The notes beneath the pieces were generated by a model. It did no database searches. It was not told where the DNA came from and was given only the letters and a program-made list of their open reading frames with translations. Shown one piece after another: positions 10,082 through 14,771 of a stretch of DNA of 34,683 nucleotides. This DNA is from Terriglobia bacterium. Its GTDB lineage: Bacteria; Acidobacteriota; Terriglobia; Terriglobales; Acidobacteriaceae. Each line of letters opens with the position of its first letter. Positions within the stretch are counted from its first letter, which is position 1. The DNA is taken from contig JAJPJZ010000074.1 of NCBI GenBank assembly GCA_021323935.1, forward strand, positions 1 to 34,683, read 5' to 3'. The position numbers were made by a program, and so were the translations under genes.

Positions 10082-10122
10082 CGCCAGGGAATAATTCGGC
10101 AATCCGCTAGAATTCAACCTTG

Positions 10123-11166
10123 ATGGACGGCAAGCCAATTCGGCTGACGGAGCATGCCAAGGCCGCGGGTTGAGCGTCGAAGCTGAGTCCGGCGGCGCTG
10201 GACGCGGTGCTTGGGAAATTAGCCCGGCAGCATGACCCGAATGTGCTGGTCGGCTTTGATAAAGCCGACGACGCCGGCGTGTATCGTCTTTCGCCCGAGT
10301 TGGCGCTGGTGCAGACAGTGGATTTCTTTACCCCCATCGTTGACGACCCGTTCACCTTCGGCCAGATTGCCGCCGTCAACTCGCTGAGCGATGTGTATGC
10401 CATGGGCGGCCGTCCGCTGAGCGCGCTGGCCATGGTCTGCTTCCCAGAAAAAGGCGATCTCGAAATCCTGCAGCGGATTCTTGCCGGTGGCCTCGCCAAA
10501 ATGATGGAAGCTGAGTGCGTGGTGCTCGGCGGCCACAGTGTCCGCGACGACGAAATTAAGTTTGGCTACGCCGTTACCGGCACAGTGCATCCCGATCGCG
10601 TGCTGGCCAACAGCGGCGCCCGAGCCGGAGACCGGCTAGTGCTGACCAAGGCCCTGGGAACCGGCGTGATTGCCACTGCCATCAAGAAGCAGCGTGCCGA
10701 AAAAGCCTGGGTCGAGGCAGCCACCGCCGCCATGACGCATTTGAACAAGCGCGCCGCCGAACTCGCCATTGCGGCCCACGGCGTTCACGCCATCACTGAC
10801 GTTACCGGCTTCGGCCTCATCGGCCACGCGCGTGAGATGGCGCTGGCCTCCGGGGTTGCGCTCACCATGACAGCCGGCGCTGTGCCGCTGTTGCCGGGCG
10901 CTGCCGAGTGCGTCCGCGCGGGCCACATCCCGGGAGGGCTGAACGCAAACCGCGAATTTGCCGAGTGCTCGGCTGAATTCGCGGAATCGGTAGCGCCGGA
11001 ACTGAAAACGCTCCTTTTCGACGCGCAAACCGCCGGCGGGTTGCTGATCTCGGTGGATCCACACGTCGCAGACGACCTGGTCGCCGCCCTGAAGCATGCG
11101 GGCGAGGACGCAGCGCTGATCGGCGAAGTAGTACGACTTCGCAATCCGCTCATCGTTGTTGATTAA
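10123..11166 (+). CDS. selD: Selenide, water dikinase (selenophosphate synthetase), selenocysteine-containing: UGA codon 17 read as Sec
   Basis: ATG at 10123 in frame with the 10207-11166 track ORF reads MDGKPIRLTEHAKAAG(U)ASKLSPAALDAVLGKLARQHDPNVLVGFDKADDAGVY...TVDFFTPIVDDPFTFGQIAAVNSLSDVYAMGG...; UGA at 10171-10173 is codon 17, the position of catalytic Cys17 of E. coli SelD ([14 protein letters not shown]). Confidence 0.93.
10187..10203 (+). promoter_or_regulatory. Candidate bacterial SECIS stem-loop for selD
   Basis: GTCCGGC (10187-10193)/GCTGGAC (10197-10203): 7-bp stem including one G-U pair, apical loop GGC; loop begins 20 nt after the UGA. Confidence 0.65.
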
Positions 11167-14300: not shown

Positions 14301-14727
14301 CTGGCAGAATGTCGTGCTGAAGGGCTTCCAGTTGGCTCCAATCGTTCGCTACAACAGCTCGCATCCCTTCAACCTGCTGGCCGGAACCGACGTGAACGGC
14401 GATCATCATTCCACCAATGACCGGCCGTTCGGCGTCGGCCGCAACACCGGCATCGGCCCCGACTACGTCGATCTCGACCTGCGCTTAAGCCGGATCGTGA
14501 AGCTGGGCGAGCGCGCCAACGTGCAGTTCATCGCCGAAAGTTTCAACCTGACCAACCACACCAATTACGCCAGCGTGAACAACATTGTGGGCCCGAGTCT
14601 TACGGCTGAGGGCTTCACCACCGCAAAGCTGAGCGGCAGCGCGGCCACTCCGCCGAGCTTGCCGCTGGGCTATACCTCGGCCTTCCCCATGCGGCAGATT
14701 CAACTGGCGCTGCGGTTCGGCTGGTAA
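11332..14727 (+). CDS. Oar-like/TonB-dependent receptor with N-terminal carboxypeptidase regulatory-like domain
   Basis: MKTIRSGVATLVVALIATLANAQ signal peptide; NIKGTVMDPQGAVVPKAQVTVSDPARGTQRTTTTDDRGQYILPDLAPANYQI (CarboxypepD_reg), plug-like and barrel regions, LALRFGW end; SD AGGAGA upstream of ATG 11332. Confidence 0.92.
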   Translation: MKTIRSGVATLVVALIATLANAQGVGASGNIKGTVMDPQGAVVPKAQVTVSDPARGTQRTTTTDDRGQYILPDLAPANYQIAVEAPGFEKTATSAPVMLTVGETVVLDFHLALAQRAEQVMVTTEAPVVAVGRTHQAEVITEREIQSLPINRRDYLTFTLLAPAVSDSTHLASDQDYRVKQTPQSGLSFYGSNGRGNSVTVDGSEANDDAGGVRLTMSQDAVEEFQINRSNYSAELGSASGASINIVSKSGTNMVHGSAYGFFRNSAMDAADPFAFSQPLAAGAIFNPLGPDVAGTKIKDSLSRQQFGATIGAPIKKDRTFVFFGFEGLRQNAQTAVPLLTNTNIFRPQTLAFNNQQSVINALAARGPAPVACLWSGAPGASAPIVMPAANCAAALTSGLTVSGLTGPTAGQIARNNFLINQFETNGGLFPYDTREYLGSARLDHKINDNNQLFVRFSSGHDQEQNPDLTSLTGFSRGSAVENSDVTIQSAWFHNFSSRTINELRGQFNTYLYNVVPNAPAEVGLDIPGFGNFGTQIFLPNRSRVEHYEMADNVSMVRGSHNLKFGVYELIRTNNTDSHTFFPGRFEFGNLPGVLLSPCLDPTLAHAPVTSAGCGLPGSVTGATIDSLQSASLGLPQFYQQGFGTGVYEFTRPFTAAYVQDSWNARPGLTLNFGLRYELDTQNPQLNTDTNNFAPRVSFAWDPTNSHKTVIRGGYGIFYSPIYAQIDNVVHTLGVVNGFRQIPQVFVPLTGSPLNPALTSAAIFQTLFAQGKVQCTTPASGNNACIAPSDLAQFGITVSQTGPIPPLSVLFSGQPNYVNPYSQQAEFGVERQIGSSISVSASYVYVHTLKMPVAIDTNLLPAPVTPVPAPDGQLVGMRNWNTTVPNPTGVAPCAGAAIVTCFANPLILQNNVYSSEGSALYQGGIFEFTKRFTHHVSVMANYTYSRATDTTSDYNSDYGPMDNTNLAAERALSNFDQRHKVVFAPVVDSPWQNVVLKGFQLAPIVRYNSSHPFNLLAGTDVNGDHHSTNDRPFGVGRNTGIGPDYVDLDLRLSRIVKLGERANVQFIAESFNLTNHTNYASVNNIVGPSLTAEGFTTAKLSGSAATPPSLPLGYTSAFPMRQIQLALRFGW

Positions 14728-14750
14728 ATGGTTTGCTAGTGAAATCAAGA

Positions 14751-14771
14751 GGGCGGGATGAACTCCCGCCC
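14751..14771. terminator. Hairpin between convergent genes, likely bidirectional terminator
   Basis: Perfect 8-bp arms GGGCGGGA (14751-14758)/TCCCGCCC (14764-14771), 5-nt loop, extendable by A-T and G-U pairs; placed between the receptor stop and a convergent small ORF. U-tract is weak. Confidence 0.65.

Follow-up and report, generated by a model that had tools for sequence, protein, structure and literature searches.

Does a selD gene with a stop codon at its catalytic position give a truncated enzyme, or does it encode an enzyme that itself contains selenocysteine (Sec)? The question arises from a gene in the genome of a soil-type acidobacterium of the Terriglobia; the gene lies in a stretch of 34,683 nucleotides analyzed as a whole (the window). 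The window is a single contig, contig 379, of a metagenome-assembled genome (MAG) of 3.4 Mb in 408 contigs that is about 90% complete. That selenophosphate synthetase (SelD; selenide, water dikinase) can be a selenoprotein is textbook knowledge, and the original prediction, made from the letters of the window, held that this SelD is probably one.

The selD gene and its reading frame

Re-reading the frame on the forward strand confirmed that selD (10123-11166) runs from an ATG at 10123 to a TAA at 11164-11166 with a single internal stop, the TGA at 10171-10173, which is codon 17 and falls on the catalytic Cys/Sec position. Because an in-frame TAG is found just upstream at 10108-10110, translation should start at ATG 10123 or at TTG 10120. 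Read with Sec (U) at position 17, the 347-residue product matches the SelD profiles TIGR00476 with 373.3 bits (cut-off 125) and PRK00943 with 338 bits (cut-off 299) and contains both AIRS domains, PF00586 and PF02769. Its match to Escherichia coli SelD (3u0o) scores 252.8 bits over residues 4-342, with U17 aligned to Cys17 and Lys20 (AAG, 10180-10182) to Lys20 without gaps, in accordance with the ungapped match and retained lysine that had been predicted. The two proteins thus belong to the same family and share K20, whereas E. coli encodes Cys17 by a sense codon. No second SelD-grade match occurs in the assembly.

Standard ORF calling yields a shorter product of 319 amino acids on the same strand (10207-11166), starting at a GTG at 10207. 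As originally pointed out, this call loses the catalytic residue; residues 1-28 are missing, positions 17 and 20 among them. The full frame corrects an ORF call that strips the active site from SelD.

Selenocysteine machinery and other UGA-bearing genes

The same assembly contains the genes for making and inserting Sec that the original prediction had proposed to look for. These are a tRNA-Sec with anticodon UCA on contig 2 (65.6 bits, cut-off 47), selA on contig 258 (550 bits) and selB on contig 173 (372 bits). A match to selU (SelU/YbbB), which would indicate the selenouridine trait, was not found in the approximately 90% complete assembly.

A search for further UGA-bearing genes, for which fdhA had been suggested as an example, recovered formate dehydrogenase alpha (FdhA) and three peroxiredoxin-like genes. 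In FdhA (contig 231, locus L101:1323-4019) the only in-frame TGA is codon 188 of the reading used here; it occupies the Sec position of the catalytic site (NQARI-U-HSSTVPGL). The peroxiredoxin-like genes (labeled L110, L111 and L112 for this genome, G000) are of the AhpC/TSA family and each carry one TGA at the peroxidatic Cys position: contig 251:1718-2104 (TPG-U-TIEAC), contig 79:3595-4251 (FTGG-U-TQEM) and contig 262:3230-3628 (FTPV-U-GKQM). They are therefore candidates for further selenoproteins of this genome, judged by the placement of their TGA codons. One TGA is present in 32 of the 32 matches listed for the contig-79 type, in this genome and its relatives. All five in-frame TGAs inspected fall on Sec/Cys catalytic sites. 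Since the search went family by family, the totals are lower bounds, with at least four such genes besides selD. Taken together, these genes, the tRNA-Sec, selA and selB support at sequence level the earlier inference that the organism encodes and uses Sec.

A fourth peroxiredoxin-like TGA-bearing fragment at a contig edge (contig 246:9-146) is a candidate. AhpD-like (CMD) genes contained no TGA. In one relative (G080) the selA match contains a TGA, which was rejected because it adjoins a frameshift and lies away from any catalytic Cys site.

SelD among related genomes

Among 100 genomes, this one included, 61 encode a SelD with one TGA, 13 a SelD without internal stop and 26 no SelD. That 61 of the 100 share the TGA at one and the same codon takes the pattern beyond chance, and by these counts TGA-containing SelD is the rule among the relatives of this genome. 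Most of the loci retrieved from genome contigs likewise carry this TGA, and its bearers include named MAGs from many sites. The nearest named relatives are Acidobacteriota/Terriglobia metagenome genomes, which points to an uncultured bacterium of this class as the most likely source of the window. The distribution follows that of selA, which is present in 61/61 genomes with TGA-SelD, in 13/13 with stop-free SelD (one of these a contig-end fragment just below the selA cut-off) and in 4/26 without SelD. A TGA-SelD without selA was never found among the 61 genomes, and the comparison with the SelD-less genomes gives a Fisher p of 6.6e-17, a value that is not corrected for relatedness. The four genomes with selA but no SelD match are G008, G037, G075 and G087, of which G075 is listed as 100% complete.

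Where loci were read base by base, codon 17 was TGA, TGC or TGT in all. Nonsense-type decay at the site, which the original prediction named as a sign against its reading, was absent from the related loci read; in these the TGA stands in an unbroken frame or is replaced by TGC/TGT.

In a maximum-likelihood tree, Cys genes lie inside Sec-SelD clades and the Cys label requires at least 5 changes. Because the tree is midpoint-rooted and has some long branches, the direction of change is inferred; several separate origins of Cys-SelD from Sec-SelD are probable in this clade, with loss of the RNA element that follows the UGA. The alphaproteobacterial Cys-SelD genes (L066, L068, L071, L072) are nested among acidobacterial Sec-SelD, and a single transfer between phyla, along with a Sec-to-Cys change, is the probable origin of this group. 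Repeated Sec-to-Cys change in SelD was reported before (PMC1794560, PMC13188914). The pairing of Sec-SelD with the RNA element and Cys-SelD without it offers a natural comparison for the loss of a Sec codon.

Sec-containing bacterial SelD has been reviewed (PMC13188914) and surveyed (PMC1794560, PMC4561486), and 19% of SelD genes in reference prokaryotes encode Sec, whose position never differs (PMC4561486). The gene described here resembles the known bacterial examples in Sec at the Cys17 position, in a SECIS just downstream and in co-occurrence with SelA, SelB, tRNA-Sec and FdhA; what sets it apart is merely its host, an acidobacterium of Terriglobia type, across whose family the SECIS is very uniform. 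Animal SPS2 is likewise both a selenophosphate synthetase and a selenoprotein, but its eukaryotic SECIS is located in the 3' UTR (PMC4561486), whereas that of this selD lies inside the coding region. Within the phylum, Occallatibacter riparius is a Sec user with three known selenoprotein genes (PMC12013277 Table 2); the present genome shares the Sec trait, and its candidate selenoprotein genes number at least five. Our literature search found no paper describing SelD of Terriglobia in particular. Overall, the Sec-SelD arrangement is well known, as is Sec use in Acidobacteriota, and the finding is ordinary in kind. It shows that using Sec is the usual condition in this acidobacterial family, which is large and for the most part uncultured.

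The RNA element after the UGA and the decoding of codon 17

A hairpin on the forward strand at 10187-10203 (GUCCGGC-GGC-GCUGGAC, loop 10194-10196) forms the apical part of the predicted SECIS element of selD, as indicated by folding and covariation. Published bacterial SECIS criteria (PMC13188914) describe a loop of 3-9 nt with a G in its first two positions, located 16-37 nt after the UGA, on a stem of 4-16 bp with an energy of -7.5 kcal/mol or lower. Here the spacing is 20 nt, the loop GGC, the upper helix 7 bp and the energy -15.5 kcal/mol. Energy criteria discriminate poorly, as 70% of control positions in the window reach the limit and 12% have a fold as good as that of the median relative, and the case for the hairpin is therefore based on conservation and covariation. 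A GGC-loop hairpin 20 nt past the TGA is the commonest geometry, found in 47 of 68 relatives. In the apical helix 98% of cells pair, compared with 21-48% in slid controls, and two pairs show two-sided changes. In deeper relatives the sequence becomes GUCCAAA-GGU-UUUGGAC, so that the helix is kept by two-sided changes while the protein is altered. By this comparative signal the hairpin is a bacterial SECIS element.

Silent sites point to the same region. Among 42 closely related TGA-SelD genes, identity of synonymous codons exceeds expectation by 0.43 in codons 18-39 and by 0.05 in the remainder of the gene, and the best 20-codon window past codon 40 reaches 0.19; codons 18-39 of ten Cys-SelD genes give 0.09. 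The constraint starts about two codons ahead of the TGA and leaves some 60-70 bases nearly frozen in TGA-bearing relatives, and only there are the silent sites of codons 15-38 (10165-10236, forward strand) near-invariant. This block includes a possible basal helix that pairs 10167-10173 with 10219-10225 (GGGUUGA with UUAGCCC), the UGA inside it. On a class-wide set, RNAalifold retained the apical helix and lost the basal one, which hardly varies within the family. Silent-site identity in TGA-SelD genes is raised once more at codons 43-53 (10249-10281 of the window); this second block has an excess of about 0.19 and is weaker in Cys genes.

These data bear on two readings of the TGA that do without Sec. 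A sequencing or assembly error, or a decaying gene that gives only the product from GTG 10207, might be suspected in a MAG as fragmented as this one, and the ORF caller does return that product. However, an identical TGA in an intact frame recurs across the relatives as well as the named MAGs, which come from many sites, and an error or decay leaves the silent-site constraint around the TGA unexplained; the comparative data refute this explanation, and we regard it as having next to no chance of being correct. It is equally remote that the codon is read as Trp, Cys or Arg, or that TGA is reassigned throughout the lineage. A frame that is open with TGA taken as X does leave the inserted residue unspecified, but pyrE, dtd and selA of this genome terminate with TGA, which thus serves as an ordinary stop and argues against wholesale reassignment. 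Moreover, the inspected TGAs coincide with Sec/Cys catalytic sites, the Sec machinery is present, and TGA-SelD was never found apart from selA in the genomes compared. We therefore favor, with a probability of about 97%, that selD encodes a Sec-containing selenophosphate synthetase whose UGA17 would be decoded through SelB and the downstream hairpin; machinery, relatives and hairpin thus bear out the original prediction as far as sequence can.

From established knowledge we infer how such a Sec-containing SelD would work. At the UGA (10171-10173), SelB bound to the downstream hairpin would deliver Sec-tRNA(Sec) to the ribosome, inserting Sec17. Located in the mobile N-terminal loop, Sec17 would handle the selenium substrate together with Lys20, and selenium substrate and ATP would be converted to selenophosphate. 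This in turn would supply SelA for the synthesis of Sec-tRNA(Sec), used for SelD itself, formate dehydrogenase and at least three peroxiredoxin-like proteins, closing a self-feeding loop.

Such a loop raises the question of whether UGA17, besides being a Sec codon, acts as a regulatory switch, with selenium shortage causing termination at codon 17 so that SelD output tracks selenium. As only one SelD-grade match is present in the assembly, SelD synthesis would depend on its own product, and the conserved RNA reaches past the minimal hairpin. Extended constraint would equally be expected from any ordinary SECIS that has a lower stem, though, and we consider the switch rather unlikely. It is in our view distinctly doubtful that the selD element, whose basal helix may enclose the UGA, is more than a plain SECIS and adjusts or switches the synthesis of SelD according to the supply of selenium, the sole SelD itself needing Sec.

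Elsewhere in the window, positions 14627-14771 (forward strand) gave a below-threshold match to the Collinsella-1 RNA (26.3 bits, threshold 35) that overlaps the end of a TonB-receptor-like gene.
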